Shown: positions 1 through 22,300 of the stretch, in pieces
Numbering within the stretch: the stretch's first letter is position 1
How the letters are laid out: every line of letters starts with the position of its first letter
Assembly (NCBI GenBank): GCA_003564185.1
Contig: PXFS01000034.1
Coordinates: 1 to 32,116, forward strand
Origin: Flavobacteriaceae bacterium
Lineage (GTDB): Bacteria; Bacteroidota; Bacteroidia; Flavobacteriales; Flavobacteriaceae
Direction: 5' to 3'
DNA: 32,116 nt
Notes under the pieces: model-generated
Database searches by the model: none
Told to the model about the DNA's origin: nothing
What the model saw: only the letters and a program-made list of their open reading frames with translations
Position numbers and translations under genes: made by a program

Positions 1-2481
1 CCAAAAACCGCTCAGTATTACGGATTTTCAAGGAGTAAGCAAAGTAAACAGTCTTACCCAAGCTCCATTATGGGGATTATGGCATTGATGCGTCAATTTA
101 ATTATGATGCGCAATGGTATGCTGATGGCAATATTTCTGAAACCGATTTAGCGATTGAAGCTTACTTAGAAAACTTAAGCCTTCCACAAATTATTCATGC
201 CGGCAACTACTTAAATGTGTTGCGTTCGGCAGATGTAGCTGAACTTTTTGAATTCGATTTTATCCCTATTGGTGGAGGTGATGAATACAAGCGAATTGAC
301 GAAATTAAGAAAGTTTTTAGTCAGATTATTTTACCGCTGAATTTTCCAGATGCTTATGATGTGGAAGATCCCTATATGGCGAATTACGTGAGTTTAGCCG
401 AAATGAAAGATTGGCAACATAAGCCGAGAAATCCGAAGTATTTAGCTGAAGCTGGATTGGAAATTTCTTTTACTATGGAAGGTTTGAAAGATCCTTCAAA
501 ATTGATGGAAAACCTGAGAACAGCCATTGAAAAAGGATTACCTAAAGAAGTGGCTTTGCAAGCTTTGACTGAAAATCCAGCCAAAATCTTAGGTATGGAA
601 AACCAGATTGGCGTTTTGAAAAAAGGAGCTTTAGCTAATTTGATTATCACTTCAGGTGAGTTATTTGATAAAGAAACTAAAATCTATGAAAACTGGATTC
701 AAGGGCATAGAAATATCATTAAAGAAGCGCCTTTTTCTGAATTAGAGGGCAAGTATGAACTTGCTTTTGATAAGGAAAAAATTGAAATTGAAATTTCTTC
801 AAAAAAAGGTCAGCTTCAATTGAAAGCTAAAAAAGATAGTCTGAAACTTGGAACAAAAATCGATTATAAAAGAAACTGGTTGACCTTCATGCTCACAGAA
901 ACGGACTCCTCTTCTACTCAAATGAATCGTTTTGCGGCCCTAGTAACTTCAGCTGAAAACGAATTTTCAGGAAAGGTGTTTACGCATGAAGGCGAAATAC
1001 TTCCTTTTTCAGCCAAAAGAGTTTCAGTCGAAGACAAAGATGAAGATTCAGAAGATTCCGAAGAGGAAAAAGATTCAGAAGAAAAAGAAAATACAGAGGA
1101 GGAGTTTCTCTCGCTAATTACCTATCCCAATATGGCTTATGGAATGCCAAGTCCAAACGAAAAATCGGGTGAATACCTAATTACCAATGCTACCGTAATT
1201 ACCAGTAGTGATGCGGGGACTTTAGAAAATCATGATGTTTGGGTGAAAAATGGAAAAATCCACAAAATAGGTCAGAATTTAAAGGCTAAAAAAGCTGAGG
1301 TAATTGATGCTTCAGGTCAATTTTTAACCGCTGGAATCATTGATGAACATTCGCATATTGCGGCGAGTTCGGTAAATGAAGGAGGATCAAATTCTTCAGC
1401 AGAAACTACTATGGAAGACGTGATTAATCCAGATGATATTAGCGTGTATCGTTCGTTGGCGGGAGGAGTGACCACCACGCAATTATTGCATGGTTCGGCC
1501 AACCCCATTGGAGGACGCTCGGCCATTATTAAAATGAAATGGGGGGCTTCGCCAAGGGATATGATTATTGAAGATAGTCCTAAGTTTATCAAATTTGCCT
1601 TAGGTGAAAATGTAAAGCAATCTAATTGGGGTGGAAGAGAGCGTTTTCCACAGACCAGAATGGGAGTTGAACAGGTTTACGTAGATTATTTTTCGCGTGC
1701 CAAAGAATACGAAAAACAAAAAGCTTCAGGCAAGTATAGATACGATGAAGAAATGGAAGTTTTGCTTGAAATTATAAATGAAGAGCGATTTATTTCTTGT
1801 CATTCGTACGTGCAATCTGAAATTAATATGTTGATGAAAGTAGCCGAACAATTCGATTTCAAAGTAAATACTTTTACCCATATTTTAGAGGGGTACAAAG
1901 TAGCTGATAAAATGAAGGAACACGGTGCTGGTGCTTCTACGTTTAGCGATTGGTGGGCGTATAAAAACGAAGTAAAAGATGCCATTCCTTACAATGCCAC
2001 TTTGATGCTGAATCAAGGTTTAACCGTGGCGATTAACTCAGACGATGGTGAAATGATTAGACGCCTTAATCAAGAAGCGGCCAAAAGTTTAAAATACGGT
2101 GAAATAAGCGCAGAAGAAGCTTGGAAGTTTGTGACGATTAATCCTGCAAAATTATTACATATTGATGACCAAGTGGGAAGCATTGAAGAAGGAAAACATG
2201 CTGATTTAGTGCTTTGGAATCAGCACCCTTTAAGCATGTATGCCAAGGCGCAAATGACCATGGTTGAGGGAGTGATTTATTTTTCAGTTGAAAAAGATGC
2301 GAAACAGCGTGAGGAAATTAAAAACGAACGAAATTTACTTATTGCTGAAATGCTGAAAGCTAAAAATAAAGGCATGAAAACCCAACCTGTGGTGAAAAAG
2401 AAAGAACGCCACATGCATTGTGATACCTTAGACGATTTTCTGTTTGAAAACTTTTCTGAAGCTCATTCACACCAATACTAA
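1..2481 (+). CDS. Amidohydrolase family protein (two-module), 5' end outside window
   Basis: The reading frame is open from base 1, so the internal ATG at 70 is not the real start. What is visible is the C-terminal half of one amidohydrolase-like module (to about base 760, with the NPAKILGM and GVLKKGALANLII signature of the barrel end and closing beta-sandwich). A very acidic Glu/Asp/Ser linker follows (about 1027-1105), then a second, complete module. That module has the metal-binding HxH (His codons 1348 and 1354, in DEHSH), further candidate ligands His in CHSYVQ (about 1800) and FTHILEG (about 1879), and Asp in NSDDGEM (about 2040). The family (imidazolonepropionase/dipeptidase-like metallohydrolases) cleaves C-N bonds with one or two metals; the substrate here cannot be told. 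Only 3 bp separate its stop from the next amidohydrolase frame, so the two are probably one operon and may work as a pair in the envelope. Confidence 0.88.
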   Translation, partial: PKTAQYYGFSRSKQSKQSYPSSIMGIMALMRQFNYDAQWYADGNISETDLAIEAYLENLSLPQIIHAGNYLNVLRSADVAELFEFDFIPIGGGDEYKRIDEIKKVFSQIILPLNFPDAYDVEDPYMANYVSLAEMKDWQHKPRNPKYLAEAGLEISFTMEGLKDPSKLMENLRTAIEKGLPKEVALQALTENPAKILGMENQIGVLKKGALANLIITSGELFDKETKIYENWIQGHRNIIKEAPFSELEGKYELAFDKEKIEIEISSKKGQLQLKAKKDSLKLGTKIDYKRNWLTFMLTETDSSSTQMNRFAALVTSAENEFSGKVFTHEGEILPFSAKRVSVEDKDEDSEDSEEEKDSEEKENTEEEFLSLITYPNMAYGMPSPNEKSGEYLITNATVITSSDAGTLENHDVWVKNGKIHKIGQNLKAKKAEVIDASGQFLTAGIIDEHSHIAASSVNEGGSNSSAETTMEDVINPDDISVYRSLAGGVTTTQLLHGSANPIGGRSAIIKMKWGASPRDMIIEDSPKFIKFALGENVKQSNWGGRERFPQTRMGVEQVYVDYFSRAKEYEKQKASGKYRYDEEMEVLLEIINEERFISCHSYVQSEINMLMKVAEQFDFKVNTFTHILEGYKVADKMKEHGAGASTFSDWWAYKNEVKDAIPYNATLMLNQGLTVAINSDDGEMIRRLNQEAAKSLKYGEISAEEAWKFVTINPAKLLHIDDQVGSIEEGKHADLVLWNQHPLSMYAKAQMTMVEGVIYFSVEKDAKQREEIKNERNLLIAEMLKAKNKGMKTQPVVKKKERHMHCDTLDDFLFENFSEAHSHQY

Positions 2482-2490
2482 AATTTGAAA

Positions 2491-3804
2491 ATGATGATGA
2501 AAAATTTATATACAACAATTTTAATTCTCTTAGTTAGTTTCAGTTTCGCTCAGCAGAAACCTTCCACGGCTGGACCTACTTCGTTTATTTTATTAGGGGG
2601 AACTGCGCATGTGGGCAATGGAGAAGTTATTGAAAATTCACTTATTCAAGTAGAAAATGGAGTGATTACTAAAATTACTTCAGCAAACGAAGAGCAAGAA
2701 ACAAGTACCTCAGGACAGGTGTATGATATTCGTGGTCAGCATGTCTATCCTGGAATTATTGCTCCCAATGCCACGATAGGTTTGGTAGAAGTTGATGCCG
2801 TAAGAGCCACCGATGACGTGAATGAAATAGGAAGTTTTTTACCACATATTAGAAGTATTATTGCTTATGATGCTGAAAGTAAAATTGTAGAATCTATGCG
2901 TCCATCGGGAGTGTTGATGGCACAAGTTACTCCAAGAGGAGGAAGGATTACAGGGACTTCTTCCGTGGTCCAGTTGGATGCTTGGAATTGGGAAGATGCA
3001 TTGGTGAAAGAAGATGATGCTATTCACATTAATTGGCCAGACCGATTTGTAAAAAAAGGAGCTTGGTACGATCCAAAAGTTGGGTATGAGCAAAATGAAA
3101 AATACAAAGATCAGGTACAAGAATTAGAAGATTTTTTTGCCCAAGCAAAAGCCTATCAACAATCCGATGAACCAAAGCTGAATTTAGCTTACAAATCTAT
3201 GGGTGAAGTGTTTACAGGTGATAAAGCAGTTTTTGTCAGTGCCGATTCACCTAAGGATATTTTAGATGCTTTAGAATTTAAGCGTCGATTTAATTTATCG
3301 AACTTTGTGATTGTAGGAGGGAGGTACGCCCATCAAGTCGCCGAAGAATTAAAAGCAGCAAACGTAGCGGTTTTAGCTAATCGCGTTCATTCCACTCCAG
3401 AAGCAGATGACGACGATTACGATTTAAGTTACAAACTTCCGAAGTTGCTTCATGAAGCAGGCGTTTTAGTCGCTTTAGAAAATTCAGGACAAATGGAACG
3501 TATGAATTCAAGAAACTTTCCTTTTTATGCTGGTCAGGTAGTGGCCGAGGGTTTAGACAAAGAAGAAGCTTTGCAACTCATCACCTTAAATCCAGCTAAG
3601 ATTTTAGGGATTGATGATCATTACGGTTCATTAGAAGAAGGGAAATCAGCCACTTTATTTGTTAGTGCTGGAGATGCCCTTGATATGCAGGGCAACCGAC
3701 TTAGTTTAGCTTTTATTGACGGAAGAAAAATCAGTTTAGAGTCGCATCATACACAACTTTATAAAAGATATAAGGAGAAGTATGAAGAGGAGAGTGAGGA
3801 GTAA
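2491..3804 (+). CDS. Secreted amidohydrolase-like protein lacking the HxH metal motif
   Basis: 437 aa from the ATG at 2491; an in-frame TTG at 2485 is possible, and the ATG is preferred because it heads a good signal peptide (MMMKNLYTTILILLVSFSFA, then QQ). Composite amidohydrolase features are present: an N-terminal beta-sandwich (LLGGTAHVGNGEVIENSLIQ) and a C-terminal TLNPAKILGIDDHYGSLEEG closing strand. Where catalytic members read PGxIdxHxH, this protein reads PGIIAPNATIGL, so the two N-terminal metal ligands are missing. It directly follows a catalytic-looking amidohydrolase gene. I infer a non-catalytic or divergent partner exported with it. The fold assignment is secure; the role is not. 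Confidence 0.85.
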   Translation: MMMKNLYTTILILLVSFSFAQQKPSTAGPTSFILLGGTAHVGNGEVIENSLIQVENGVITKITSANEEQETSTSGQVYDIRGQHVYPGIIAPNATIGLVEVDAVRATDDVNEIGSFLPHIRSIIAYDAESKIVESMRPSGVLMAQVTPRGGRITGTSSVVQLDAWNWEDALVKEDDAIHINWPDRFVKKGAWYDPKVGYEQNEKYKDQVQELEDFFAQAKAYQQSDEPKLNLAYKSMGEVFTGDKAVFVSADSPKDILDALEFKRRFNLSNFVIVGGRYAHQVAEELKAANVAVLANRVHSTPEADDDDYDLSYKLPKLLHEAGVLVALENSGQMERMNSRNFPFYAGQVVAEGLDKEEALQLITLNPAKILGIDDHYGSLEEGKSATLFVSAGDALDMQGNRLSLAFIDGRKISLESHHTQLYKRYKEKYEEESEE

Positions 3805-3922: not shown

Positions 3923-3986
3923 ATAATTTGTTTTTATCCACCATTTGAAGATAAGCAGAATTGGATTTTGTTTAAAAATACTTCAA

Positions 3987-4123
3987 CTTCAACGTTTTGC
4001 AACTACCCGAAGGTGGCGACTTAAAATGCGCAAGTTTTTCGGTTAAACTTTTACTTTTATAAAAATACACAAACCTTTCATTTCAGCACCAAATCTCGCC
4101 ATTTTTGTTATGCGCTGTTGGCA
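3987..4123 (-). repeat. attC-like recombination site A (end of cassette array)
   Basis: This is an imperfect palindromic unit between the last cassette gene and the flanking chromosome. On the plus strand it runs from a TTCAAC box (R' complement) through GTGGCGAC, a conserved AATGCGCAAGTTTTTCGG block and CGCCATTTTT to GTTATGCGC and GTTGGCAATGG. The GTGGCGA/TCGCCAT pairing is kept. The outer left arm (GTTTTGCAACTACCCGAAGG) does not pair with GTTATGCGC, unlike sites B and D. The same odd arm recurs in site E. Confidence 0.65.
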
Positions 4124-4165
4124 ATGGTTTTTTTTCAGAGTAACCACCTACATCTAAAAAGTTAA

Positions 4166-4576: not shown

Positions 4577-4616
4577 ACCAATTATCAGTATCTATTTAAG
4601 TTAAGATTATTTTTAA

Positions 4617-4769
4617 ATTACCGCTAACGTCTCGCGCATAACATGAGTGGCGACTTAAAATGCGCAAGTTTTTCGGTTAAACTTTAAGTTTCTAAAAATA
4701 CACAAAACTCTCGTCCAGTCTGACCGTGGCAGGTAGGCAGATTTTTGTTATGCGCTTGTTGGGCATAGT
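4617..4769 (-). repeat. attC-like recombination site B
   Basis: The outer arms GCGCATAAC and GTTATGCGC are perfect 9-bp complements, flanked by CGCTAAC on the left and GTTGGGC on the right (R'/R'' boxes with AAC/GTT ends). The block AATGCGCAAGTTTTTCGG lies in the unpaired core. A roughly 27-bp GC-rich imperfect palindrome (about 4714-4740, GACCGTGGCAGGTAGGCAG at its end) sits where site D has the plain CGCCAT arm. On the minus strand it follows the zeta-like/50-aa cassette. Confidence 0.72.
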
Positions 4770-4773
4770 GCTA

Positions 4774-4926
4774 TCACTCAGGTTTTATTTTGACGATTTT
4801 GTCGCCTTTCATTATTACGAGTTCACTTTTTTTCTCTTTTTTAAATTCGATAAGTTTTTCATAAACTTTTTCAAGTCCATTAACAATTTTGTCTTTTAAT
4901 TCTATTTGTTTATCTCTTTTGCTCAT
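4774..4926 (-). CDS. 50-aa charged protein, partner of the zeta-like kinase
   Basis: A short ORF (starts MSKRDKQIEL, ends DKIVKIKPE) beginning 17 nt before the end of the kinase gene in another frame, so the two are probably translationally coupled. It is Lys/Glu-rich and predicted helical over most of its length (KIVNGLEKVYEKLIEFKKEK) and closes 5 bp before attC-like site B. Its size, charge and overlap with a toxin-like kinase suggest an antitoxin or accessory protein. In classical epsilon/zeta operons the antitoxin gene comes first, so the order here is reversed. No family was recognised. Confidence 0.6.
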   Translation of the reverse strand: MSKRDKQIELKDKIVNGLEKVYEKLIEFKKEKKSELVIMKGDKIVKIKPE

Positions 4927-5497
4927 AACTTTTCTTTAATTCGTTATACTTTTTTGCATTTGTAATTACTATATCTTCGTACTCTATTTTTTGAGCTATT
5001 AGTTCGTGCTTACCAAATGAATTATCAAAAATCAGTACTCCGTCAACAATGTCCATATAAATATCGAACAAATTTTTAATACCCTTGGTATAACGCCTTT
5101 CAATCACTTTATTTGGAATATTGTGTCCACCTTCTTTTACTCTTGTTTTTACACGTTCTTTTGCTAATTCAACATTATTTAACCAAAAGAAAAGCAAAGT
5201 CACAGTATATCCGTTTTGTTTGGCGCTTAGAATTTTGTTTTTGTAACTTTTAGTAGATAAGGTCGTTTCAAACCCAAAACTCTCATTTTCATTTAGAAGT
5301 TCTTTAATTCTTTTAAGCATTATTCTTCCAGCTTCAAAAGAAACCTTTTCTGGTTGAAACGGGGAAAGTCCTTTCGCAATTTCGTCTGCGTTCACGAATT
5401 CTTTACACTCAATAATTTCAGGTAAAATAGTGAATGAAGCAGTCGTTTTTCCCGCTCCGTTACATCCTGCTATAATATAAAGATTTTTTTCTTTCAT
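4910..5497 (-). CDS. Zeta-toxin-like P-loop kinase
   Basis: 195 aa starting MKEKNLYIIAGCNGAGKTT. Walker A is at residues 11-19. The NADEIAKGLSPF segment near residue 40 and GFETTLST near 75 match the substrate-binding part of zeta-toxin/COG4185-type kinases. Known members phosphorylate UDP-N-acetylglucosamine or other small substrates and act as growth-inhibiting toxins; the substrate here is not established. The length is typical for the short bacterial form. It is the first gene of a two-gene cassette, with its own likely promoter just upstream and a 50-aa ORF overlapping its 3' end. Confidence 0.8.
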   Translation of the reverse strand: MKEKNLYIIAGCNGAGKTTASFTILPEIIECKEFVNADEIAKGLSPFQPEKVSFEAGRIMLKRIKELLNENESFGFETTLSTKSYKNKILSAKQNGYTVTLLFFWLNNVELAKERVKTRVKEGGHNIPNKVIERRYTKGIKNLFDIYMDIVDGVLIFDNSFGKHELIAQKIEYEDIVITNAKKYNELKKSYEQKR

Positions 5498-5555: not shown

Positions 5556-5706
5556 CATTATGCCAACAGTCCGCGCATAACGAAAGTGGCGACTTAGAAT
5601 GCGTAAGTTTTTTGGTTAAGGTCTAAGTTTCTAAATATACACAAAACTCTCGTCCTGTCTGACCGTGGCAGGTAGGCAGATTTTGTTATGCGCTTGTTGT
5701 GCAAGG
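5556..5706 (-). repeat. attC-like recombination site C
   Basis: GCGCATAAC and GTTATGCGC arms are present, with outer boxes TATGCCAAC (left) and GTTGTGCAAGG (right). The core is AATGCGTAAGTTTTTTGG. It carries the GC-rich imperfect palindrome (about 5653-5679) seen in B, E and F. The stop codon of the lipoprotein gene (5709-5707) abuts the R'' side directly. Confidence 0.7.
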
Positions 5707-6344: not shown

Positions 6345-6485
6345 GTGCTACAACGTCTCGCGCATAACGAAAGTGGCGACTTAAAATGCGCAAGTTTTTC
6401 GGTTAAACTTTAAGTTTCTAAAAATACGCAAAACTCTCATTTCAGCACAAAACTCGCCATTTTTGTTATGCGCTGTTGCCAGTAG
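6345..6485 (-). repeat. attC-like recombination site D
   Basis: This is the cleanest copy. GCGCATAAC (left) pairs with GTTATGCGC (right), and inside it GTGGCGA pairs with TCGCCAT. Outer boxes are GTGCTACAAC at 6345-6354 and GTTGCCAGTA at 6475-6484. The unpaired core of about 70 nt contains AATGCGCAAGTTTTTCGG. The R'' box matches the reverse complement of the 5' end of its own cassette (TACTGCCAAC, 7262-7271) in 9 of 10 positions. Confidence 0.75.
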
Positions 6486-7261: not shown

Positions 7262-7456
7262 TACTGCCAACGTTTTGCAGCTACCCGAAGGTGGCAACTT
7301 AAATGCGCAAGTTTTTTGGTTTGCCTGTATTTCGGCTTAGCTCAATGACCTCCGGCAAAGGCAGGTTAAGGTCTAAGTTTCTAAAAATACACAAAACTCT
7401 CGTCCTGTCTGACTGTGGCAGGTAGGCAGGTTTTTGTTATGCGCTGTTGTGCAAGG
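7262..7456 (-). repeat. attC-like recombination site E (enlarged)
   Basis: At 195 bp this is the longest copy. Outer boxes are TACTGCCAAC (7262-7271) and GTTGTGCAAGG (7446-7456). The left arm is GTTTTGCAGCTACCCGAAGG, like site A, and does not complement the right-hand GTTATGCGC. The core carries an extra insert of about 46 bp (about 7321-7366) with TTTGCC/GGCAAA inverted ends, plus the GC-rich imperfect palindrome (about 7404-7430). Confidence 0.65.
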
Positions 7457-7469
7457 TTTTTTATTAAGT

Positions 7470-8002: not shown

Positions 8003-8170
8003 GTTGCACAACGTCTCCCGCATATGGTTTGTGGCGGGACTGAAACCGCTCGCCATTCAGTTGAGTTCATAAGTTGATAAAAATACTGAAATTTTTGGTT
8101 TATCAAAAATCTCGTAATCTGCCTGACTGCCGCAGGTAGACAGGTTTTTGTTATGCACTGTTGTACCACG
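8003..8170 (-). repeat. attC-like recombination site F (divergent)
   Basis: Outer boxes are GTTGCACAAC (8003-8012) and GTTGTACCAC (8160-8169). The left arm CCCGCATATG pairs imperfectly with GTTATGCAC. The core differs from A to E and lacks the GCGCAAG block. The GC-rich imperfect palindrome is present in a variant form (about 8119-8144, CTGCCTGACTGCCGCAGG). The 5' box of the cassette transcribed from it (TTGCACAAC) is the exact complement of the R'' box of site E. Confidence 0.6.
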
Positions 8171-8818: not shown

Positions 8819-9703
8819 TTAAGCCGCTTTATTAACTTTTCCTCTTAATTTGATTTCCATTTCTAGGGGGGAAAGATACCCTAAAGATGAATGTATTCTT
8901 TCTGTATTATACCAGTTTATATAATCTGCAACAGAGTTATTTAGCTGACTTGTAGAAGTATATTTAAAACGATACAACCATTCACTTTTGATTGTTTTAA
9001 AAAAACTTTCAGATACAGCATTGTCCCAACAATTTCCTTTTCTACTCATACTCTGGGTTGTTTTTCTATTAAAAGAAAATAACTTAACCATCTTGTTAGA
9101 AGCAAACTGAATACCACGATCTGAATGAAATACAAATTCGCTACTAAGTGACCTATTTGATCTAGCATGAAGCCAAGCTTTCATGATTGTATTTTCAGTA
9201 GTCATATCTTCACTTAATGACCATCCTATTACTTTTCTATCTGCAAGATCTATTACTGTTGTTAAATAGTTCCAGTCATTATTAACCCTTATGTAGGTAA
9301 TATCGGACACCCATTTCTCACCAAGTTGTGAACTATTAAAATCCCTATTCAGCTTATTATCTGCAATACCAAATGCATGATTCGAATCCGTGGTAATTAC
9401 ATATTTTCTCCTCAAAACACTTTTTAAATTCATTTGCCTCATCAAAAGAGCTATATAGGAACGGCTATAGTACAAGTTTTCTCTTTCTAACATCTTTTGA
9501 ACTCTATGACTGCCATAGATTTGCCTACTTTGCTTAAAAATCGATCGAATTCTTTCTTTTAACAAAACAAGTGACTCTTTTTCAACTTTATTGTCTTTTG
9601 TTTTTATCCAATTGTAATAGGCATTTCTACTAACTTTCATGCATTTACACATCCGCTCAACAGTAAAACTATCAGTATTATTTAAAATAAATTGATATCT
9701 CAC
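8819..9703 (-). CDS. IS3-family transposase OrfB (DDE integrase core)
   Basis: 294 aa counted from the GTG at 9703. The native product is probably an OrfAB fusion made by -1 frameshifting, since the frame is open upstream to the slippery site. An N-terminal HTH-like region carries the IYGSHRVQKML motif near residues 62-72 (HTH_21). The catalytic core has Asp134 (WVSDITYI), Asp195 (FHSDRGIQF) and Glu232 (NAVSESFF), the D,D(about 35)E triad. The ending YNTERIHSSLGYLSPLEME is the standard IS3 tail. It cuts and joins the element's ends during transposition. Confidence 0.93.
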   Translation of the reverse strand: MRYQFILNNTDSFTVERMCKCMKVSRNAYYNWIKTKDNKVEKESLVLLKERIRSIFKQSRQIYGSHRVQKMLERENLYYSRSYIALLMRQMNLKSVLRRKYVITTDSNHAFGIADNKLNRDFNSSQLGEKWVSDITYIRVNNDWNYLTTVIDLADRKVIGWSLSEDMTTENTIMKAWLHARSNRSLSSEFVFHSDRGIQFASNKMVKLFSFNRKTTQSMSRKGNCWDNAVSESFFKTIKSEWLYRFKYTSTSQLNNSVADYINWYNTERIHSSLGYLSPLEMEIKLRGKVNKAA

Positions 9704-9981
9704 CTGTCGCTCTTGGAGAAGATGCTGACTGCCTTTTTTAAGATATCCCTTTCCATAGTTATCTCTCGAAGCTCTTTTCTCAAAGCTTTCAACTCTTTTT
9801 CTTCTTGAGACAACTCTTTTTTATTTGTAAAATCACCTGATTTAGCTTCGTACTCTCTTCTCCATCTTCGGATCATAGCTCCGTTTAAGCCATACTCTTC
9901 ACTTACCTCTTTAACAGGTCTTCCAGACTTTAATAACTCTGCTATTAAAACCTTAAATTCATTTTCATACTTCTTTGCCAT
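9700..9981 (-). CDS. IS3-family transposase OrfA (HTH protein)
   Basis: 93 aa. The N-terminal helix-turn-helix (FKVLIAELLKSGRPVKEVSE, then YGLNGAMIRRWRREY) recognises the element's ends. It is followed by a leucine-zipper-like helix (LKALRKELREITMERDILKK) for multimerisation. Its TGA (9702-9700) overlaps the GTG of orfB by the GTGA pattern. The start lies about 42 bp inside the left inverted repeat. Confidence 0.92.
   Translation of the reverse strand: MAKKYENEFKVLIAELLKSGRPVKEVSEEYGLNGAMIRRWRREYEAKSGDFTNKKELSQEEKELKALRKELREITMERDILKKAVSIFSKSDR
9733..9739 (-). other. Programmed -1 frameshift site of the IS3 element
   Basis: In the orfA frame the sequence reads TTA AAA AAG, giving the slippery heptamer A AAA AAG in the right phase. 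A -1 slip moves translation into the orfB frame, which is open from here (KKGSQHLLQERQVRYQF). This would yield the OrfAB transposase as in other IS3 members. Confidence 0.75.
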
Positions 9982-10167
9982 AATTCAAATTTAAACATTT
10001 CGGGCTGAATTATTTTGTCACAACAAATATAGACACTCCAAATCACTCCGAACTTATTTGGGGCTAAATTAATTCCGTCTTGAGTTTCAATCAACTTATG
10101 AATTGATGCAGCTAATAGTCCGAGTGGAATTAGTCCTAATACTATTTTTAGTTTTCGTTTCATTTAA

Positions 10168-10317
10168 ATGTGCTACAACGGTCTTGTATATGAAAAGTAG
10201 CGGATTTCTATACACTAACTTTTCAGTTTTACACTGAACTTTGATTTATCTTTTATCTTTTATCTTTCCTTTAATCACTTAAACCGCTATTACTTATACA
10301 CAATGTTGGCGGTAGTT
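10168..10317 (-). repeat. attC-like recombination site G
   Basis: Outer boxes are GTGCTACAAC (10170-10179) and GTTGGCGGTAG (10305-10315). Inner arms are TGTATA/TATACA and TAGCGG/CCGCTA. The core includes a TTTTATC triplicate-like stretch and does not share the GCGCAAG block of A to E. The R'' box matches the complement of the 5' end of its own cassette (TACCGCTAAC, 14337-14346) in 9 of 10 positions, 4.2 kb away. The last ten codons of the methyltransferase gene lie inside this site. Confidence 0.7.
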
Positions 10318-11189
10318 TTTACTTTTTTCAGTTTAAATCTCAATGGATTCCAATCTTTGATTTTAGGCTGTTCGATATTATTGCTAAAAAACAATATTTC
10401 TTTTCCTTCCCTAATTTCATAAGCAGTATGATTAAATGAAAACTCTTTTTTTGGACATTCCGCATACAATTTTTTAATTTCTGGAACATTGTCATACGAA
10501 ACTATCCACTTAATATTTTGAATGGACTTAATCTTGTCACTTACTTTTTTATGATTTTTATCTTCGTAATGATTCATATAAAGCGTACTAGCTTTTAGAT
10601 AATAAGGTGGGTCGAAATAAAAAACTATGTTGTCATTTTGTGCTTCTTGTTCTATTTTGTCAATTAATTTGACAGCATCTTTTTTATATAGTCGTATGTT
10701 TTTTTTGTGATATGCAATGTTTTTTATTCTCTGTATGAGTTCAGTTTTATTAAATCTGCAATCCATTAAATAGTTACCTGTCTGTTCGATTCCTCCCATT
10801 ACACCTGCATTAATTATTCCCGAACGATTTGTGCGATTTAAGTAGAATGTAGAAAAACCTAAATCAAGTAAATCAGCTTTTCGTTTATTTGACTGAACTG
10901 ATTTTTGCTTTTTCCATTCTTCTATTGATAGTTCTGCATTTTCTATCAATTGGCATAATTGTTTAGTTTTATTCAGGGCTGAATACCAAAAAGCATAAAT
11001 TGAACGGTCTCTATCATTTATTGTAATTTTCTCAACAAACCCCTCCATTAACAGAAATAGGGCCACCGAAGCTCCACCAGAATATGGCTCAACATAATGG
11101 CCATTTATATTGTTGTCAATACAAATCTTTGCAATAAATGCAGAAAGTTTATTTTTTCCGCCTGGATATCTTAATGGTGAATAAAACAT
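10290..11189 (-). CDS. D12-class (Dam-like) DNA N6-adenine methyltransferase
   Basis: 299 aa. The hallmarks of the MethyltransfD12 family are in order: SPLRYPGGKNKL at residues 4-15 and EPYSGGASVAL at 34-44 (S-adenosylmethionine binding), FYLNRTNRSGI at 115-125, and the catalytic DPPYY at 193-197. The family transfers a methyl group to adenine N6, commonly in GATC or other short sites. The target here is unknown. It is the last gene of the ParB/OLD-like operon, 7 bp after the ATPase gene, so its likely job is to mark self DNA or to modify the DNA that the other two proteins act on. The extreme C-terminus (KTTANIVYK) is encoded by the attC-like site. Confidence 0.9.
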   Translation of the reverse strand: MFYSPLRYPGGKNKLSAFIAKICIDNNINGHYVEPYSGGASVALFLLMEGFVEKITINDRDRSIYAFWYSALNKTKQLCQLIENAELSIEEWKKQKSVQSNKRKADLLDLGFSTFYLNRTNRSGIINAGVMGGIEQTGNYLMDCRFNKTELIQRIKNIAYHKKNIRLYKKDAVKLIDKIEQEAQNDNIVFYFDPPYYLKASTLYMNHYEDKNHKKVSDKIKSIQNIKWIVSYDNVPEIKKLYAECPKKEFSFNHTAYEIREGKEILFFSNNIEQPKIKDWNPLRFKLKKVKTTANIVYK

Positions 11190-11196
11190 ACTTATC

Positions 11197-12756
11197 TTAA
11201 AAAATTTTTAATTGATTCAACAAGTCGTCAAATTTACGATTAAACTCAACAACAAACTCTTTATTGGTCTTTTTCCATTCATTTAGAACTTTCGAAGCAT
11301 TTCTGCCCCAAATAGGGAGGTGTTTATTAAACCACTCTTTAGCTTTGTCTCTGTCTTTTTGGATGTCATCATTTGAAATTACTTGAAAGCAATATTGATG
11401 ATCAAATGTATCGTCAATTTTACTCCATAACGGATGAGAGTCCTCCAAATCATTTAAATAATTCGCAATTATTTGTTCAGGGGATCTATCACCTGGTAGC
11501 AATAAAATATTTTTTAATTTATTTGCAGCCCTCAACTGTTTATTGTTCTGCTTTACATCACCGTCTAAAACGATTATTGAGTGCGGAAAAGAAAAAGATG
11601 GAACCTTAATTGTCGCTAGTTGAATTAAATTGCCACACCCTAAATTTACTTTAACAAAGTTTATATACTTTGTTTTACGACCTATCAATGATTTGACAAA
11701 AATGACCCCTTCCCGATCCTCGGTATACAAGTCTACTCTTTTATTAGTGACTTTTCCCGTAAGAGTCTTATTCAAATGATTTCTGATGAAGTCAAAAGAT
11801 GTATTGTTACTTATATTTATTTTACCATCTTTTTTTGATAGAAACATTAATTTTACCTGTCCGTTTCTTTTTTGATTACCTTCAATTTTCCCAGCTTCTT
11901 CTAAAATTGTAAGAGAATGTGATGTCAAGATTATTTGAATTTTAAATTTTGAAGCAAAATGAATCAATGCATCAAATAATATTTTTTGTGACCCTGGATA
12001 AAAACTGGCATCAATTTCATCAATTGCTAATATTCCACCTTGATAATCTTCTTTGTATTTCTTTTGCAGTTTTTTAAAAGACAATACCGCAAGTAAGATT
12101 TTACTTAAGTTATCTTGACCAGCTGAGTTTGACTTCCAATCATAATGATCCGTATTTGCGCCAACAGTTTGTTTATTTGTACTAAGTAAAAAACTAGAAC
12201 TCAAAACTTTATCCTTATCTCTAGTAAGGATTAAAATCTTATTAAACCATTTTTTGTAGAAGGCGAATTCTTCATTTGTAAGTTCAGAATTTTTATCAAC
12301 TGATAAGCCATTATCCTCAGCAATTGGCAGTAGTCTTTTAAGGCTTAAATAAATTACAGGCAGTTGAATGAAGCCAGAACCTTTGGTTCGATCACCTTTT
12401 TTCCAAAACCGTATCTTTCCTTTTGATTTATCTCTATGTATACTCTCTACAGTATAAGGTGGAAATATATTGTTCTTAAAGTGAAGCGTCCATTCATGTT
12501 CTCCAGCAATATCAAAACTTTCAGAAAGTTTAAATTTATCTGCAAATGATGAAATATAATTTCCGCCTGATAAAGGTTTTTCATTTTTCATTGGATGCTC
12601 GTCATCCTTAATAGCAAAGGGTTGACTTAACATTCCAAGGATAGTTGTTTTCTGAGTACCGTTTTGACCAGCAATCACGGTTACTAAATTCCCTAATTCG
12701 AATTCGACGTTTTCAAACCCTCTAAACTTATCGACATGTATCTTATTGATTATCAT
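11197..12756 (-). CDS. OLD-like ABC ATPase with TOPRIM domain
   Basis: 519 aa. ATPase part: IHVDKFRGFENVEFEL at the start, a Walker A variant GQNGTQKT at 30-37 (Lys36 kept, but the Gly before it replaced by Gln), an ABC-type signature SAGQDNLSKIL at 211-221, Walker B ILAIDEID at 242-249, and an H-loop ILTSHSL with His280. C-terminal part: YTEDREGVIFVKSLI with Glu346 and IIVLDGD with Asp398/Asp400, fitting a TOPRIM metal site, then LLLPGDRSPEQIIANYL as in OLD-family nucleases. The expected activity is ATP-controlled DNA nicking or cleavage; activity here is inferred. It overlaps the ParB-like gene by 14 bp and precedes the methyltransferase. Confidence 0.82.
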   Translation of the reverse strand: MIINKIHVDKFRGFENVEFELGNLVTVIAGQNGTQKTTILGMLSQPFAIKDDEHPMKNEKPLSGGNYISSFADKFKLSESFDIAGEHEWTLHFKNNIFPPYTVESIHRDKSKGKIRFWKKGDRTKGSGFIQLPVIYLSLKRLLPIAEDNGLSVDKNSELTNEEFAFYKKWFNKILILTRDKDKVLSSSFLLSTNKQTVGANTDHYDWKSNSAGQDNLSKILLAVLSFKKLQKKYKEDYQGGILAIDEIDASFYPGSQKILFDALIHFASKFKIQIILTSHSLTILEEAGKIEGNQKRNGQVKLMFLSKKDGKINISNNTSFDFIRNHLNKTLTGKVTNKRVDLYTEDREGVIFVKSLIGRKTKYINFVKVNLGCGNLIQLATIKVPSFSFPHSIIVLDGDVKQNNKQLRAANKLKNILLLPGDRSPEQIIANYLNDLEDSHPLWSKIDDTFDHQYCFQVISNDDIQKDRDKAKEWFNKHLPIWGRNASKVLNEWKKTNKEFVVEFNRKFDDLLNQLKIF

Positions 12757-14305
12757 AAGGAATGTTGTTACTTAAGATTACAAAAAGAGGCTCCAAATGC
12801 TGCCATGCTCTTTTATTATGCTCTAAATCCACTATTGTTTCAATGTTGTGGACTGCTAAGTCCAAACCATCTTTTATTCGATCAATATAGTGGTTTAAAT
12901 TTTTTAGTTGAAGAGTATCTAAATGATTTTCTAATTCATTGTTTTTGATATAATCCAACATTATTTTGAGTGAAGCACCTGTATAATCTTTTTTACTATT
13001 AAATCTTAAAATAGTCATTATTTCGGTAGATTCAATTTCATCTTTAATAGAATGTTTTCCTTTAAAGTAAGCAATTAAATTATCAACTTTTCTAAGACTA
13101 TTTTTTTCGTTTTCAGAATTTGTTTTAAGGCTCAAATCTTCAAATAATTCTTTTTCTTTAAGATAAAAATAAAGAGATTGTTCTAAGTAAGTTCTTAATA
13201 AAACTGAAAATGAATAGACTTTGTCGATAGGCAAGTGCTTTAATTCAGCAAATAATCCATCAAGCTTTTCGTTATCAAAAATTATTTCTTTGTCGGCCAA
13301 GATAATTCGATTTTGATATGATTTTTTCTTAGACCTTTTTCTTCTGCGTGTTACCTTTTTCTTTTTTTCTTCTAAATCCGATTTCTTTTTTGAAGACTTA
13401 CTTTCCGTTTTTTCTTCTTTAGTTGCAGAAAAATCAAACTTAGGATTACTATTAAGTTTGGCTATGAATTGTTTTTTATCATCATCTCTGTTGAAGTCTC
13501 GAGAAAATCTCTCTGCATCAATTAATATTTTAAACACTTCTAGAAGTCTAATTTCAAATTCTTCTTGAGGAAGGCTAATTATCAATTCTCCTGTTTCATC
13601 ATCAAACTCAATTCCGAGGAATCTTCTTGCTGGTTCGTAGGAATAGAATCGTTCAAGGTTAGTAAATTCAAAATCGGCAACGTCTATTACAATACCTTCT
13701 TCTTTTTCTAAAATTTGTTTGCCTTCATAAAATAAGTTATAAGCTTTTAAAGGCTTTAGAATTTTTGCTCTACTTTCATTTAATACATCACAAATATCTT
13801 CAACAACTAAACCATCTTCATAGAACATTTCCGCAACAAAAGCATATTGATTCCCTGTTTTCCATTTTTTTAGTGAGTCGCCTTGGTGTCTTTCATAAAT
13901 TATTGGATTTGCAAGTAAACGATTAGGTGAGATATAACATCTTAACTTTCTATCTACTGGGAAGTCATTTTTTAAAATGTTTTTTAGCAATGTATTCGCT
14001 TTAGCTGTCGATAAATATTTTTTAGGTTCTTGAAGTAGTTTTAAGGCTGCTGTTCTTCTATTGCCTTCAAGTACAACCTTTTTATTGTTTTCAATACATA
14101 TTATTGGCTCTTCTCCAACAAAATACCCTTCTTCTGATATTTTTTTTGCTAACTCGTAAACACCCTCATTATTTATTAAGAATTTTAATATTTGAGTTTG
14201 ATTCATGGTGTCTCCTCTATATTTTATTCTTGGATTATTCAAATCTAATTGTAATGTTTTCAAGCTATATTCAAATGTTTCCCAAGAAGAGTAGTCTATA
14301 TACAT
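12743..14305 (-). CDS. ParB/Srx-domain protein with helical C-terminal domain
   Basis: 520 aa, first gene of a three-gene operon. The N-terminal ParB/Srx-like domain (about 15-130) includes the VLEGNRRTAALKLL motif, with the box at 80-87 that forms the nucleotide site in ParB CTPases and related nucleases or kinases. A middle helical region contains DICDVLNESRAKILKPLKAY (about 170-189), like a HTH. A highly basic linker (297-328, with VTRRRKRSKKKS) probably contacts DNA. The C-terminal helical domain (about 335-515) ends with GLDLAVHN (His486), reminiscent of HEPN-type folds, though this is only a resemblance. It may be the DNA-sensing or clamp part of the system. The start ATG lies 41 nt from the cassette boundary. 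Confidence 0.75.
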   Translation of the reverse strand: MYIDYSSWETFEYSLKTLQLDLNNPRIKYRGDTMNQTQILKFLINNEGVYELAKKISEEGYFVGEEPIICIENNKKVVLEGNRRTAALKLLQEPKKYLSTAKANTLLKNILKNDFPVDRKLRCYISPNRLLANPIIYERHQGDSLKKWKTGNQYAFVAEMFYEDGLVVEDICDVLNESRAKILKPLKAYNLFYEGKQILEKEEGIVIDVADFEFTNLERFYSYEPARRFLGIEFDDETGELIISLPQEEFEIRLLEVFKILIDAERFSRDFNRDDDKKQFIAKLNSNPKFDFSATKEEKTESKSSKKKSDLEEKKKKVTRRRKRSKKKSYQNRIILADKEIIFDNEKLDGLFAELKHLPIDKVYSFSVLLRTYLEQSLYFYLKEKELFEDLSLKTNSENEKNSLRKVDNLIAYFKGKHSIKDEIESTEIMTILRFNSKKDYTGASLKIMLDYIKNNELENHLDTLQLKNLNHYIDRIKDGLDLAVHNIETIVDLEHNKRAWQHLEPLFVILSNNIPYDNQ

Positions 14306-14332
14306 ATTTATTCTATTATTTCTTGTTTTTTC

Positions 14333-14400
14333 AAATTACCGCTAACTTACTTATATCCCCAACTTTTATCGGCATAGCTTACCTCATAAGATGAGTAAGC
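14333..14400 (-). other. Bare R'-type cassette boundary (H), possible decayed attC or attI-like end
   Basis: ATTACCGCTAAC at 14335-14346 is identical to the boundary box of site B (4617-4628) and complementary to the R'' box of site G, so it marks the 5' end of the ParB/OLD/Dam cassette. The rest of a full attC is not found to its right. Instead there is a small hairpin, CTTACCTCAT/ATGAGTAAG (14378-14387 and 14391-14399). No integrase gene follows. Confidence 0.45.
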
Positions 14401-14874
14401 ACAAGATTTATATTTTTAATTAATACAATATTAATCATTTTAGCTTAAAATCAATTGAATATGAATGAAAAAACCTAATTACATGATGACATGTTACCTG
14501 CCACGAGTGTTTTGAGGTATGTGGCTAAGGCTTTAAAAGTTTTAGTTGCTAAAGTTTTCATTACGATTACAGAAAGGGTAAAAAATGTTATTTTTACTTT
14601 TCAATAAATATATTCTGTAAGCTAAATTTTAAGAGATTGCCATAATTTTTCAGTTTCAATATTCAGAAGAGTTAGAGTTAAAACATTAGTATATTTTCAA
14701 CCTACTTTAAATGCAGTTTTTATCAATATCTTTAATAGCTATGCCGCCAGTTGTATGAAAAAAAGCCTATTCCATGATGATTAATTTTAAATGTGTAATT
14801 TTGTGATGCATATATTTATTAGTTTGTTTCTTTTATATTTAATCAGAGACAACTTAAAACCTAAATTTTTTATT
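14401..14874. other. Intergenic stretch, no supported gene
   Basis: AT-rich sequence between the cassette array and the lipoprotein gene. I see no coding frame with family features and no structured RNA or clear repeat. The region just before 14875 should hold the lipoprotein promoter, but no convincing TAnnTTTG element was found. Confidence 0.4.
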
Positions 14875-16366: not shown

Positions 16367-19300
16367 ATGGAAACAATTCCTACTGATTCAACTCAAAATC
16401 AATGGGTTGACTACATCAAGACATTCCCTATCGGCCAACAAGTAGTCATTCAATCTTTAAGAAAGACTTACCAAAATGAATTTGGGATAACCGACTTTAG
16501 GCAATTTGAAAAACGACTTAAGACAGAAACGCAAATCTTATTTAGTGAGCTTTCACGACTCCCTTCAGGCACAGAATTTATTATATCATTAAGCCAATGG
16601 TTAAAAGAAAAAGCATTAGGTGTTAGAGACTGGAATGAATACCCCGTAAGGTTTGATGATTTTGAAGAACCCTTTGCAACAATTATAAGCGAGTATTATT
16701 CAAACCTAAGAAAAATTTCTGTCGAGCAATTTCAAGATCTACCAGACAACGTTATAGCCTATGACATTGTATTTTCACTTCCCTCTTTCAATAAAGAATT
16801 CTGGCAATATTATATAGAAATCTTAGCTACTCAATATGCGGAATTCCTTGAGGGACTTCAAATTATTGAGCAACCAAAAAGTGTAAATGGCTGCCCAGGT
16901 GAAATTAAAACTTTTACAGTTGTAACAAATTTGAGTAAAGTTTCTTACCAATGGAGAAGAGATGGTAGAGATATAAGGGGTGAGACTAATGATACTTTTA
17001 AGATAAAATTATTAGCAGGAGATAATCTGGCAAAAATTAGTGTTTTAGTTATTGGTGAGGATACATCTGTTTTATCTACATCTGCAATAATAAGAGTGGA
17101 AGTACCACAGATAATTGACCAGCCAGCTGATGCAAGTGTACAGTCAGGTAATAGTGTATCTTTTAGTATTTCTGTTAATGGTGAGAATATTAACTACCAG
17201 TGGAGAAAAGATAACATACCATTAAAAGGGGAAACTTCTCCAATATTAAAACTTGAAGAGGCGCAATTTAGTGATTCAGGTTTTTATGATTGTGTAGTTA
17301 GTAATGATTGTCAATCTATAATTTCGCAAAAAGCAAGTTTAGTCGTATTAGACAATTACATGGTGAAAGGTAAAGTTATTATGGCTGATCAATCACCTGC
17401 AATTAATTATCTTGTTCAGGCTTACCATTATGAAAATGGAGTTAAATATTTGCTGGGTGAAAGCCATACAAACAACGATGGAAATTACATGGTTCCTTTT
17501 ACAGCAGAGCAGTTTGGTTTAAAATGGAAAGGTAAGGCCAACCTATTTGTTGTAGTTACTTCACAAGGTATTAACCAAAAGTCACCCCTCATTCTTGGTG
17601 CCAAAAAAGTACAGGAAATAAATGTTATAACATCTCAGCTTGACATTAAAGCTATAAGTGAATATTTTAAACTCAAAGAATGGTTTGATACAAATGTACC
17701 AAATTTTGACTGGAACAACGTTACACAGGATGATGTAGAAACATTTACTAAAAGTTCTAGATTATTTGAGTCTTGGGTGAAATCCTATAGCCAAGCTAGG
17801 TTCATTTCACAATCTTTAGAAGATGTAGAAGGATATTACGGCATGATTAGAACAAAATCAGGCTTCAAAACAATAGATTTTATTAACCTTAAAAAAGAAG
17901 AAGTTGAAAGTGCGCTTAATTTAGCTAAAGAACGTAATTATATATCAAGTACATTTGATGAGACTAACATCACAAATCAACTCAGCCTAAACTATGACAA
18001 TGAAGTTGAAAGCTTAATTGAATCAAACACTGATAATGATATTAAGAAATTTGTTGATCTTGTTGATTTTGGAGGCGCTTCGGTTGCTATTAAGAAAAAG
18101 TTTTTTGAACTCTACCGTGAGAATAGAGATACACCAAAAAAGTTTTGGCTTGAAGTAGATACTAATTTAAGTGATTTTAGTCAAAGCCTTAAATTAGTAT
18201 CTCAGATGGGTGCAGTTACCTCATCAAATTTTGATTTGATGAATGAGATTAAACGTACACACAGTTTTAATACAGCACAAGATCTCGTTAAGCTTACAGA
18301 AATAGATTTAGAAACAAGTATTCAAAATGCAGGAAATCCAATTCCTGCTTATATTCAAGGCGAAACACTCTCTGAGAGGCGGAAAAATTATGCCCAATGG
18401 ATTAGTGGTCAAATTGAAGAAGCTTACCCTACATCATACATGGCAGAACGAATTTCTGAAGAACCAGATTTTCCATCCAAAACAGACTTTAGTACATTTT
18501 TTGGGAATAATTCAAATTTTAATTTAGGCAAAGAACCTATTCATGAATACCTAAGTAAGAATGAAAATGCCTTAGCAGGTATAACAGATCCTGAAGAATT
18601 CACTTTGAATTTACTTAAATTACAGCGTTTCCATACAATTGCTCCAAAAGACAAAAAAGCCATAGTTTCAAAATCACTTTTCAACAAAAACTATCAAAGT
18701 GCTCCGGATATCGCTATTACTACTTATGAGACTTTTGTTAATGAGCTTTCAGCCGATATAGGAGAAATTACCGCAAGTCAGGTTTATGCTAGTGCTCGAG
18801 AGGTAACTGCTAGATCAATCAATCTAGCTGGAAAATATAATCAAAGTCTTAATTCAACTGAATTTAGTGTTGTAAGTGGAAATAAGTTAGACTCTTATAG
18901 CAATAGACTAAAAGATATTTTTCCAGACATAGAAACGCTTTTAGGAGAAACTGATTATTGTGCTTGTGAGCACTGTAAGTCTATTTTTGGTCCAGCAGCT
19001 TATCTTGTAGATTTGCTCAAATATAGTCAGAATATAAAATCAGAAAATCTTTCGCTTTATCATGTTCTAAATCAGGTTTATAGTGATCTAAATCAACCTA
19101 GGCGTGGCGATATGCCAAAAATAGATTTAACATGTAAAAATACCAATGTCCCTCTTCCTGCTATTGACATAGTAAATGAGTTATTATGTAAACTAACTCA
19201 TGATTCTTTTCCAGATTCACGTCAAACCACTTGGACGGAAGAAGAGTTACGTATAGCTCCAAAATATCCTCCTACTAATCAGATCAATGAAATATTAGCA

Positions 19301-22300
19301 ACAAATGAATTTCCATGGAAATTACCATTTGATTATTTTACTCAATTAATAGATCTTCAGTTGCCTATAGCAAATGTTTCACGTGAGGAAATTTCTTGGA
19401 ACCTTCCTAAAGTTGACGGAGATACCACTTCAGACGGTGAGCTACAAGAAATAAGAGCAATCAGTTCACTATCAGTATCCAAATCTACTTGGTTGATGCT
19501 TATAATGAAAGAGTTCAATATACATAGTGTTTACAATGTATCAGGAAGTATAAATGATTATTTTGAAGATAGCTCAGGAAACCTTTTAGTAAAAAAGTTT
19601 ATAGACCACATAGGAATTTCGTTTGTTAGGTTCCAAGATTTATTGAAAATAACAACTTTAAACCCGTATGAACCTAATGGTAATCGAAAATATACTATTA
19701 GTTATGAGGATGATGAATGTTCTCTAGAAAAAGCTAGAGTTTCAGGAGTGGAAAATTTCTATAAACGTTTATATTATATTGAAAAGCTTTCTACTTCATT
19801 AAAATGGGATTTACGAAATGCTGACTTATTTGTAAGAGGATATAATTTGGTAACTGCAGTAGATAATTCCAATAGCATTGAACTAGAAAAATCTTTAAAA
19901 GATATAGCTTTAATAAAAAAATTAGCATCTAAACTTGGCATGGATTTGTACCATACCTTAAGTTGGTTTACTAGCTTAAATACCACGACATATAAAGAAG
20001 ATGAACTCTCTCAATTTGAAACAATCTATCTAAACCCAGAAGTCGCCTATACTTATTCAGATATAGAAAAGAATGGATTATTACTTAATAATCAAAGAAC
20101 AGACTTACTTTCTCCAAGTACTCTCAATGAGATGAAAAATGTAATACTTTCGTCGCTTCAAATCAGCGGAAAATCTTTAGATTTAATTGTTAGTAGCGGT
20201 TGGCTTGGTGAGAGTTCATATGTAATGGAGGTTAATTTTGTACGCCTGCAACAACTCTATGCAGTTACTAATCTTGCAACTAATCTGAACGTTGACATAT
20301 CATCTTTGATAATGTTATGGAAAGCTTACACTAGTAACACAAATTCGCCAATACAAAACACCTATCAGGATATTGAAAATCTAATTGATTTTGTTGATTT
20401 TGTTTTACAATTAAAAGCTTCATCTTTTACCATTGATGAGGTTGATAAGCTTTTTAATTATAGTGATTTGGAAAGAGTTTTACCAATTGGTGATGTTACT
20501 GATTTTTTAAACAAATTAAGGAGTACTCTTAAAGAACAATGGCAACAAAAAATCAATAATGTAGATAAAACACAAAAAGGCATTCATTTTTTATTGAGTA
20601 CTCAGACCTTAAGCAATGTGTCAGATGTCGATATTAATAATATTGATATAATTATTAGAGGAGAATATAATGAAACTGATCAAGAAGTTTTAATTGATTG
20701 GTGGAATAGCGAATTTGAATTGATTAACTTCATCAATATTGATACCGATGATTTCCGAGAAAAAGTGATTAATATTTCTGATCCAAGCTATTTAACTGAC
20801 CCGAAAAACCGGATTGAGTATATTTATACTGTTTTTTTTGAGGCACAGCAAGTTGCTCCAGAAACAGTTACTTTAACTGAAACAGTATTTACTAAATATA
20901 CTGGACAGTTTGCTGTCGAAGAGTTTGTTTCTCAATTTTTAGAAGACTATCCACAAGTTTCTCCATTACAAAACACTTTGTTGACTGATTCTAATTATTT
21001 ACATAGTCTTACCGATACATCTATTCCAATAATTAATGTTTTTACAAATAAAACAGAATTTGTAGAAAATGAACTTCCAATAAAATTTGATAATTTTCCT
21101 GAAGTATATAACTCTTACTACTTAATCTTCAAAAACCTTAGTTTCTTATCTAAGTTTCAACACATAGATAAGTATTATAGCCTTTTCTATAATTACCGTC
21201 CAGAAAATTGGCCAAACCCAGTAAAATTTCCTGTCACAGATGTTTCAGGTATATCAACAAAAGGATTACAAAAGGTTTTTGAACTTTATGAGGCAGAAAA
21301 AAATCATGCATTAGACAAATCAGAATTGTTTATTATGATGTTAGGAGTGCATCAAGGTTCATTAGAAAATCAAGATAATGTAAGATTACAACTATCTAAG
21401 TTAACAGAATGGTCGTTAGCTGAAATAAATCACCTTACCAACTCATCAGGTTTTAATTTTGAAGGAGAATATTACCTAGAATCAGATTGGATATATAAAT
21501 TAAATAAGGCTTTTTATACTGCAAGCAAGTTAGAAATTGAACCATCAGTGGTACAGGAACTAAACAAACTAATATTTTTAAGATCTGATGCTTCAGCTGT
21601 TCAACAAACCATTCGAAAAAGCCTTGTCGGTTCAACAGGAACTGAAAAACTAATTGAAGCTAACGATAGTTTACGTGAATCTTTGCGTGATGCGCTTGTT
21701 GGATATGTGATTTTCAAAACAGATGTACTTGATAATGAGCTTTTCGAAAAAAGTAAAGCAGGTTTGTCAGACTTTCTTTTAACAGATATAGAAAAAAGTG
21801 CATGCGGTAAAACAACACGAGTAAGACAAGCCCTTTCTGCTATACAAATGCTTATGCAAAGAGCCCTTATGGGGTTAGAGCGTCTTGATGGAGTTTCTTC
21901 TACTTTCGAAGTCCCTAACGGCCCTGCTGAGGAGTGGATTTGGAGAAAAAACTATCGTGTGTGGGAAGCCAACCGTAAAGTATTTATGTATCCTGAAAAT
22001 TGGTTACTAAATGAAACTCGTGATGACCAAACATATCTTTATCGTAATTTCGTGGAAGAGCTTTCGCAAAGCAATGTCACTGATGAAAGCGCTCGAAGAG
22101 CTGTAACCAATTACCTTAAAGAGCTAAATGAAATAGCAAAATTACAGATTGCTCAGATATATCAAGAAGGCGAGAGTGTTGGCAATGCTAGGCGAAGAAA
22201 CCTAACCAATACTACGCATATATTTGCAAGAACTCAAAATGATCATCACTCTTATTATCACAGAAAATGGATTGATGATGCTTACTTTACTCCTTGGCAA

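Follow-up and report, generated by a model that had tools for sequence, protein, structure and literature searches.

What does an OLD-type ATPase-TOPRIM gene do when it lies between two genes that match the components of an anti-phage pair? The question is raised by a locus in a 32,116-nucleotide stretch of DNA (the window) from a Flavobacteriaceae bacterium (assembly GCA_003564185.1, contig PXFS01000034.1). Its minus strand carries three genes, here called A (12743-14305, 520 aa), T (11197-12756, 519 aa) and M (10290-11189, 299 aa), all confirmed as open reading frames (ORFs). The frames of A and T share 14 bp, and 7 bp separate T from M, the spacing already reported in an earlier note on this DNA, which had proposed the three genes as a candidate new defence system. 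A is a ParB/Srx-helix-turn-helix protein with a tentatively HEPN-like end, of the PD-Lambda-5 component A type; T is an OLD-type ABC ATPase-TOPRIM protein; and M is a D12-class N6-adenine DNA methyltransferase of the PD-Lambda-5 component B type. Our preferred reading, to which we give a probability of roughly 0.6, is an anti-phage system of the PD-Lambda-5 type that is licensed by methylation and has gained a second effector, so that a single self mark would hold both effectors in check. The source genome comprises 2.63 Mb in 173 contigs and is 90% complete; the closest named M and T proteins come from other Flavobacteriaceae (Kordia, Aequorivita).

A and M match the components of PD-Lambda-5

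Among the 21 PADLOC-DB models matched by A, 20 are PD-Lambda-5_A models (best 2.9e-40), the longest single match covering residues 3-454 (4.9e-36), and A also matches phrog_9592 (8.1e-42). M matches PD-Lambda-5_B over residues 2-280 at 1.3e-116. Its Pfam D12 match (7.8e-17) bears out the D12 adenine methyltransferase named in the earlier note, and its profile matches include 7m6b and DpnM (2dpm). Filing A under PDC-M38A was rejected: the PADLOC match is weak (9.4e-9) and covers small parts only.

The AlphaFold2 (AF2) model of A, with a mean predicted local distance difference test score (pLDDT) of 83, falls into three parts. Residues 1-290 (13436-14305, minus strand) comprise a ParB/Srx fold followed by a helical DNA-binding-like part. 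Residues 291-342 (13280-13435) are, from sequence and pLDDT, a Lys/Arg-rich and poorly modelled linker, with pLDDT below 50 at residues 305-311 and 317-330. Residues 343-520 (12746-13279) form a helical domain whose predicted structure we tentatively describe as HEPN-like. Fold comparison of the model leads to ParB, KorB and Noc, and the ParB/Srx fold and the GxRR box are both present, the latter as GNRR at residues 81-84, invariant among the relatives compared. The earlier description of A as a ParB/Srx protein thus stands at the level of the fold, but Pfam detects no ParB family in A or in its relatives (39 members scanned), and the putative HEPN-like end had been missed. Within this end R371 and H486 are invariant, yet they lie far apart in sequence compared with the Rx4-6H motif of HEPN proteins. 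A sequence search of the PDB with A gave no useful relative.

T belongs to the OLD nuclease superfamily

T is placed in the OLD nuclease superfamily by its fusion of an ABC ATPase to a TOPRIM half and by conserved acidic residues. The ATPase half (residues 1-333; 11758-12756, minus strand) has an unusual Walker A motif, GQNGTQKT, and the protein matches Pfam AAA_15 at 8.7e-16. In the TOPRIM-like half (residues 338-450; 11407-11745), E346, E349, D398 and D400 are invariant in 29 of 29 aligned rows, and D347 is likewise listed among the conserved acidic residues. Foldseek with the AF2 model (mean pLDDT 88) returned TsOLD (6p74, E 7.9e-14) as the best match, with retron Eco8 and GajA next, in agreement with the domain composition given in the earlier note. 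T also matches phrog_3940 (3.8e-106), a PHROG without known function; a PDB sequence search yielded no useful relative.

To which catalogued system could T belong? No full-length T model is among the PADLOC-DB 2.0 matches shown for the window T and four relatives, and its 25 best PADLOC matches include no PD-Lambda-5 model. Its identification as Gabija GajA was rejected: the PADLOC GajA matches are partial (best 1.1e-14, best stretch residues 184-284), and Pfam finds no helicase, such as the UvrD-like GajB, among the ten window ORFs, flanking ones included. The MAD3 ATPase of MADS was rejected as well (NCBIfam MAD3, 19.7 bits against a curated cut-off of 420), as were a retron protein, for which matches are partial, and PDC-M38A (3.1e-15, small parts only).

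The trio recurs as a minority form

How often do the three genes occur together elsewhere? Loci (given by L numbers) were gathered around each gene in turn: the best 80 of 147 genome relatives and the best 80 of 108 viral relatives of T, the best 80 of at least 573 viral relatives of M, M-bearing loci in 395 Bacteroidota genomes (M accepted at E up to 1e-50), and A-like places in 295 genomes of the class. The viral relatives were found by scanning with T and M alignments; when T or A was used as a single sequence, the viral scan gave no relative. Apparent near-duplicates occur among the viral loci (L102 and L103), and L075 and L107 are apparently one locus in two collections.

In the genome T-anchored sample M adjoins T in 69 of 80 loci, and the full trio is present in 26, in at least four gene orders and several lineages, so that the co-occurrence search suggested by the earlier note turned out positive. 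The order T-A-M is the most frequent (15 loci, plus another that contains an additional A-like gene), followed by A-M-T (5), A-T-M (4) and T facing M-A (1). The loci lacking a full trio comprise 43 with T and M and 11 with T alone. Five of the latter lie at a contig end (L051, L052, L057, L065, L074); two contain HerA-like and NurA-like genes, with a D12 methyltransferase farther away (L045, L047); and by manual reading one adjoins a C5-methyltransferase-like ORF (L069), one lies beside type I restriction genes (L062), and two have no recognisable DNA methyltransferase nearby (L091, L099). Among the viral T-anchored loci M is found in 74 of 80 and A in 6 of 80, all six being trios.

The M-anchored samples give the complementary picture. 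Of the 80 viral loci, 42 hold family-level M proteins and 38 remote D12 enzymes; the 42 comprise 26 with A and no T, 12 with T and no A, one with both and three with neither. M occurs in 22 of the 395 Bacteroidota genomes: 12 loci pair A with M (A being split in two of them), three including the window are trios, one has T and M near a contig end, and six have neither A nor T. Of these six, two have a truncated M and two read as HerA-NurA-like. Around A, a DNA methyltransferase lies within about 4.5 kb in eight of the nine A-like places outside the source genome (the exception is L280), one of the eight methyltransferases being C5-like by manual reading. From these counts, an A or a T without a DNA methyltransferase is uncommon in the T-, M- and A-anchored samples, and the trio recurs, though in a minority of loci.

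These counts also bear on a model close to that of the earlier note, in which restriction is chiefly the work of T as the nuclease, A serves T as a DNA clamp or loader, and M protects host sites. The ParB-type fold of A and the conserved ATPase and TOPRIM residues of T would suit such a division of labour. Against it stand the tentative HEPN-like end of A and the two partial architectures: A and M occur without T in 12 of the 22 Bacteroidota loci and T and M without A in 43 of the 80 genome loci, so that neither A nor T needs the other. We regard this arrangement as improbable.

Two further kinds of locus came to light in these samples. Units of T and a D12 methyltransferase that lack A were seen in L002, L005, L006, L071 and L095 and in 64 of the 80 viral T loci; they come from phages or genomes, with Gram-negative as well as Gram-positive hosts. 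For L005 and L006, too, no full-length T model is among the PADLOC matches shown. Shorter ParB-like proteins of about 376-391 aa (L026:10166-12280, L277:7364-9411, L282:7938-10046 and L283:6665-8680) are each followed by a 280-320-aa protein without a Pfam hit, with a D12 or C5-like methyltransferase nearby; perhaps these loci work on the same principle, the effector being encoded apart.

M carries a near-constant presumed recognition segment

If one methyltransferase serves different partners, do all of its versions write the same mark? The presumed target-recognition segment of M comprises residues 106-150 (10740-10874, minus strand), as judged from block entropies and from Dam and DpnM structures. 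In an alignment with DpnM it falls on LYMLRVNFNGLYRVN, which we take to be part of the Dam-type DNA-recognition region. In DNA methyltransferases the recognition segment is usually the variable part. Here, the entropies of its three 15-residue blocks over 143 non-redundant M proteins are 1.29, 0.94 and 1.42 bits; 0.94 is the minimum over all blocks of M, and only residues 1-15 (1.17) and 31-45 (1.11) are comparable, the others ranging from 1.60 to 3.48.

A motif close to LNRTNRSGI..GVIGG..Q.GNY..DCRFNK is common to the rows shown for A+M, T+M and trio loci, and likewise to L045 and L047. A few rows, for example L319 and L033, deviate at the RS of LNRTNRSGI; two more remote HerA-linked D12 enzymes have LNRTSFNGI, and still other sequences are found in remote D12 enzymes (for example NKCSYSGLT). 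Since recognition segments usually vary, the near-constancy of this one across the three architectures suggests a single shared target sequence, which would allow A, T and M to be exchanged without co-evolving.

The components were exchanged independently

The history of the components was followed in quick trees of 130 of 180 T rows and 143 of 195 M rows, after removal of short, odd-length and low-scoring rows and then of near-copies (85% identity); 34 of 127 inner branches of the T tree and 49 of 140 of the M tree are weakly supported. On the M tree 29 changes are needed among the three architectures, the labels still being more clustered than when shuffled, and for each architecture label 10-13 changes are required by its well-supported branches. 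Pairwise comparisons with the window show the same mobility. The Kordia trio L023 is 64% identical in T, 82% in M and 26% in A, and the viral A+M contig L018 81% in M and 26% in A. Pedobacter L026 is 58% identical in A and 46% in M, and L276, which has no T, 55% in A and 73% in M. Aequorivita L022 has kept all three close (83, 72 and 78%). A, T and M have thus been exchanged independently, and with relatives as close as L018 and L276 lacking T, the earlier idea of the trio as one new unit holds only in part.

Does this mobility mean that the trio is a coincidence of two independent systems? On this account a PD-Lambda-5 pair (A and M) and an OLD pair (T and M) collapsed onto one M by gene capture, and A and T do not cooperate. 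Both pairs do occur alone, as the viral M loci show (26 of 42 with A only, 12 of 42 with T only), the gene order is variable, and T can lie on the opposite strand (L001, L030, L104, L312). However, the window T belongs to a 32-row clade (SH-aLRT, an approximate likelihood-ratio branch test, 99) in which 22 rows are trios, six have T and M and four lack an adjacent M (two of these at contig ends), against seven trios among the 98 rows outside it, and such a concentration in one T clade speaks against mere coincidence, as do the 14-bp overlap and 7-bp gap of the window, which argue for co-expression. We consider two independent systems unlikely.

A proposed scheme of one self mark and two putative effectors

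We return to the trio as a PD-Lambda-5-type system with a second effector. To judge from its family, M would methylate the adenines of one conserved target throughout the genome and so mark the host as self. The predicted structure of A suggests that it binds DNA through its ParB and helix-turn-helix part and senses DNA that is unmarked or otherwise behaves as foreign; sensing would then switch on the HEPN-like part, presumably an RNase, and the infected cell would be stopped. T would be a second, DNA-cutting effector that responds either to this mark or to the activity of a phage. The effector of A is perhaps directed at RNA and that of T at DNA, both being putative. One observation weighs against this scheme: no HEPN chain is among the Foldseek matches listed for the model of A. 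The earlier note had proposed a restriction-like system with an ATP-gated nuclease, and a restriction-like or abortive logic does fit; with a putative effector in A itself, T probably acts as a second effector and less likely as the only nuclease.

A wider reading, which we put forward tentatively, is that a single lineage of D12 methyltransferases writes a shared ‘self’ password around which unrelated effectors (ParB-HEPN, OLD-TOPRIM and perhaps HerA-NurA) are swapped; they could be swapped freely if each reads the same mark. If this is true, the trio would be a two-tier immunity with one mark and two killing arms, one directed at RNA and one at DNA, so that a phage blocking one arm would still face the other, and effector exchange would become predictable. 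For PD-Lambda-5 itself, our interpretation would suggest that it works by a methylation mark restraining a DNA-reading HEPN protein, and that this same mark also serves an OLD family without a full-length PADLOC model among the matches shown.

The locus lies in a plausible but incomplete cassette array

The earlier note had placed the trio inside an attC-bounded cassette beside toxin-like cassettes. Six attC-like repeats of about 137-196 nt (repeat families D1-D9) bound small cassettes on the minus strand at 3985-4128, 4620-4766, 5558-5706, 6346-6482, about 7262-7457 and 8003-8170, and a divergent seventh site, aligned with five of the six, lies at 10165-10312 (minus strand), its start encoding the C-terminal residues of M. 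CAAC...GTTG termini are shared by five of the six aligned sites; 4620-4766 ends in GTTA. The attC end consensus is RYYYAAC/GTTRRRY, from which the ends of 10165-10312 deviate. In folding comparisons only 6346-6476 of the six sites clearly beats its shuffles (z -3.60), and 3985-4120 folds worse than most (177 of 200 shuffles as good); 10165-10312 does not fold significantly better than its shuffles (z -1.23; equalled by 16 of 200). At the upstream junction (14333-14346, minus strand) direct reading identifies the core GTTAGCGGTAATTT, 14 bases identical to 4615-4628; no full attC was found there, and the stretch 14335-14460, the seventh folded as DNA, does not stand out (z -2.02). All TIGR02249 matches in the 90%-complete source genome lie below the curated cut-off and were rejected as integron integrases. 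L018 and L022 have an M gene end like that of the window. In L018 the sequence that follows the M stop (L018:5640-5760) also resembles that of the window (score 36, reached by none of 500 shuffles), so the A+M pair of L018 may once have been a cassette; after M in L022, L023 and L276 no such resemblance was found. The attC-bounded cassette is thus borne out only in part: the integron-cassette setting is plausible but incomplete, an array without a recognised integrase.

The toxin-like neighbours were recovered in the form of a zeta-toxin-like protein (4910-5497, minus strand; Pfam Zeta_toxin 5.4e-10). Could the trio itself be an addiction or maintenance module, with M as antidote and A and T as toxins, selected for the stability of a cassette or prophage and not for defence? 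Relatives do sit on phages and plasmids, PD-Lambda-5 is reported on Pseudomonas genomic islands, a cell that lost M could be left with toxic effectors, as in restriction-modification systems, and the zeta-toxin-like cassette is close by. The direct phage-protection data for the PD-Lambda-5 pair in Escherichia coli (PMC9519451) stand against this, and addiction and defence can coexist. Addiction as the selected function seems to us very improbable.

Other neighbours are transposase genes within the array (8819-9703 and 9700-9981, minus strand), presumably IS3-like; two amidohydrolase-family ORFs flanking it on the low-coordinate side (70-3804, plus strand); and an adjoining 3411-aa ORF (16367-26602, plus strand) with Tc-toxin A-subunit domains, namely a TcB-binding domain (2.9e-103), ABC_toxin_N and a neuraminidase-like domain.

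Comparison with known systems

Finally, we would like to place the trio among the systems that it resembles. With OLD nucleases, GajA of Gabija, the OLD protein of retron Eco8 and PtuA of Septu, T shares the ABC ATPase and, in the case of OLD and GajA, the TOPRIM domain. However, it is only about 13-15% identical to them and is partnered with a D12 methyltransferase, and a Pfam scan of ten window ORFs revealed no partner gene of theirs.

In P2-like phage Wphi, as in our locus, a ParB-like protein (gp98) adjoins a DNA methyltransferase, but the latter is of the cytosine type by annotation, a separate gp96 has no Pfam hit, and no OLD protein is annotated in the stretch. The P2-like phages L262 (Wphi), L263 and L264 each have a ParB-like gene and a gp96-type gene, with the DNA methyltransferase facing both (BspRI-like in L263). 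ParB-like proteins, then, pair with other methyltransferases too. The HerA-like loci (L045, L047, L323, L324) have a D12 methyltransferase by the same profile, and L045 and L047 also have T; they differ in that HerA-like and NurA-like genes replace A. The HerA-like gene is identified by Pfam DUF87 and PADLOC HerA in L047 only. Its neighbour, without a PADLOC or Pfam match in these loci, we take to be NurA-like from its features. In L045:6001-12128 and L047:6001-12288 the two genes stand with a related D12 methyltransferase and T.

The closest known system is PD-Lambda-5. Mrr has a taste for methyl-adenine. The pair is reported to protect E. coli and altered plating or plaque size for all but one of ten phages; it was termed a compact ‘RM+Abi’ system, and its cloning host lacked the mrr region (Vassallo 2022, PMC9519451). 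Taken together, the choice of host and the preference of Mrr suggest that the PD-Lambda-5 methyltransferase is active. The accessible part of the literature naming PD-Lambda-5 offers no mechanism for it, and the trio as such has no entry that we found in PADLOC-DB, NCBIfam, PHROGs or the accessible parts of the literature searched, so that the candidate new system of the earlier note seems new as a combination, while its A+M pair is already catalogued. Window A and M match components A and B, and the two adjoin each other in many relatives. In the window, by contrast, their direct adjacency as a two-gene unit is absent, the OLD-type gene T lying between them, which makes the locus a PD-Lambda-5 variant and not a plain member: the A+M pair is PD-Lambda-5, and what seems new is the built-in T.

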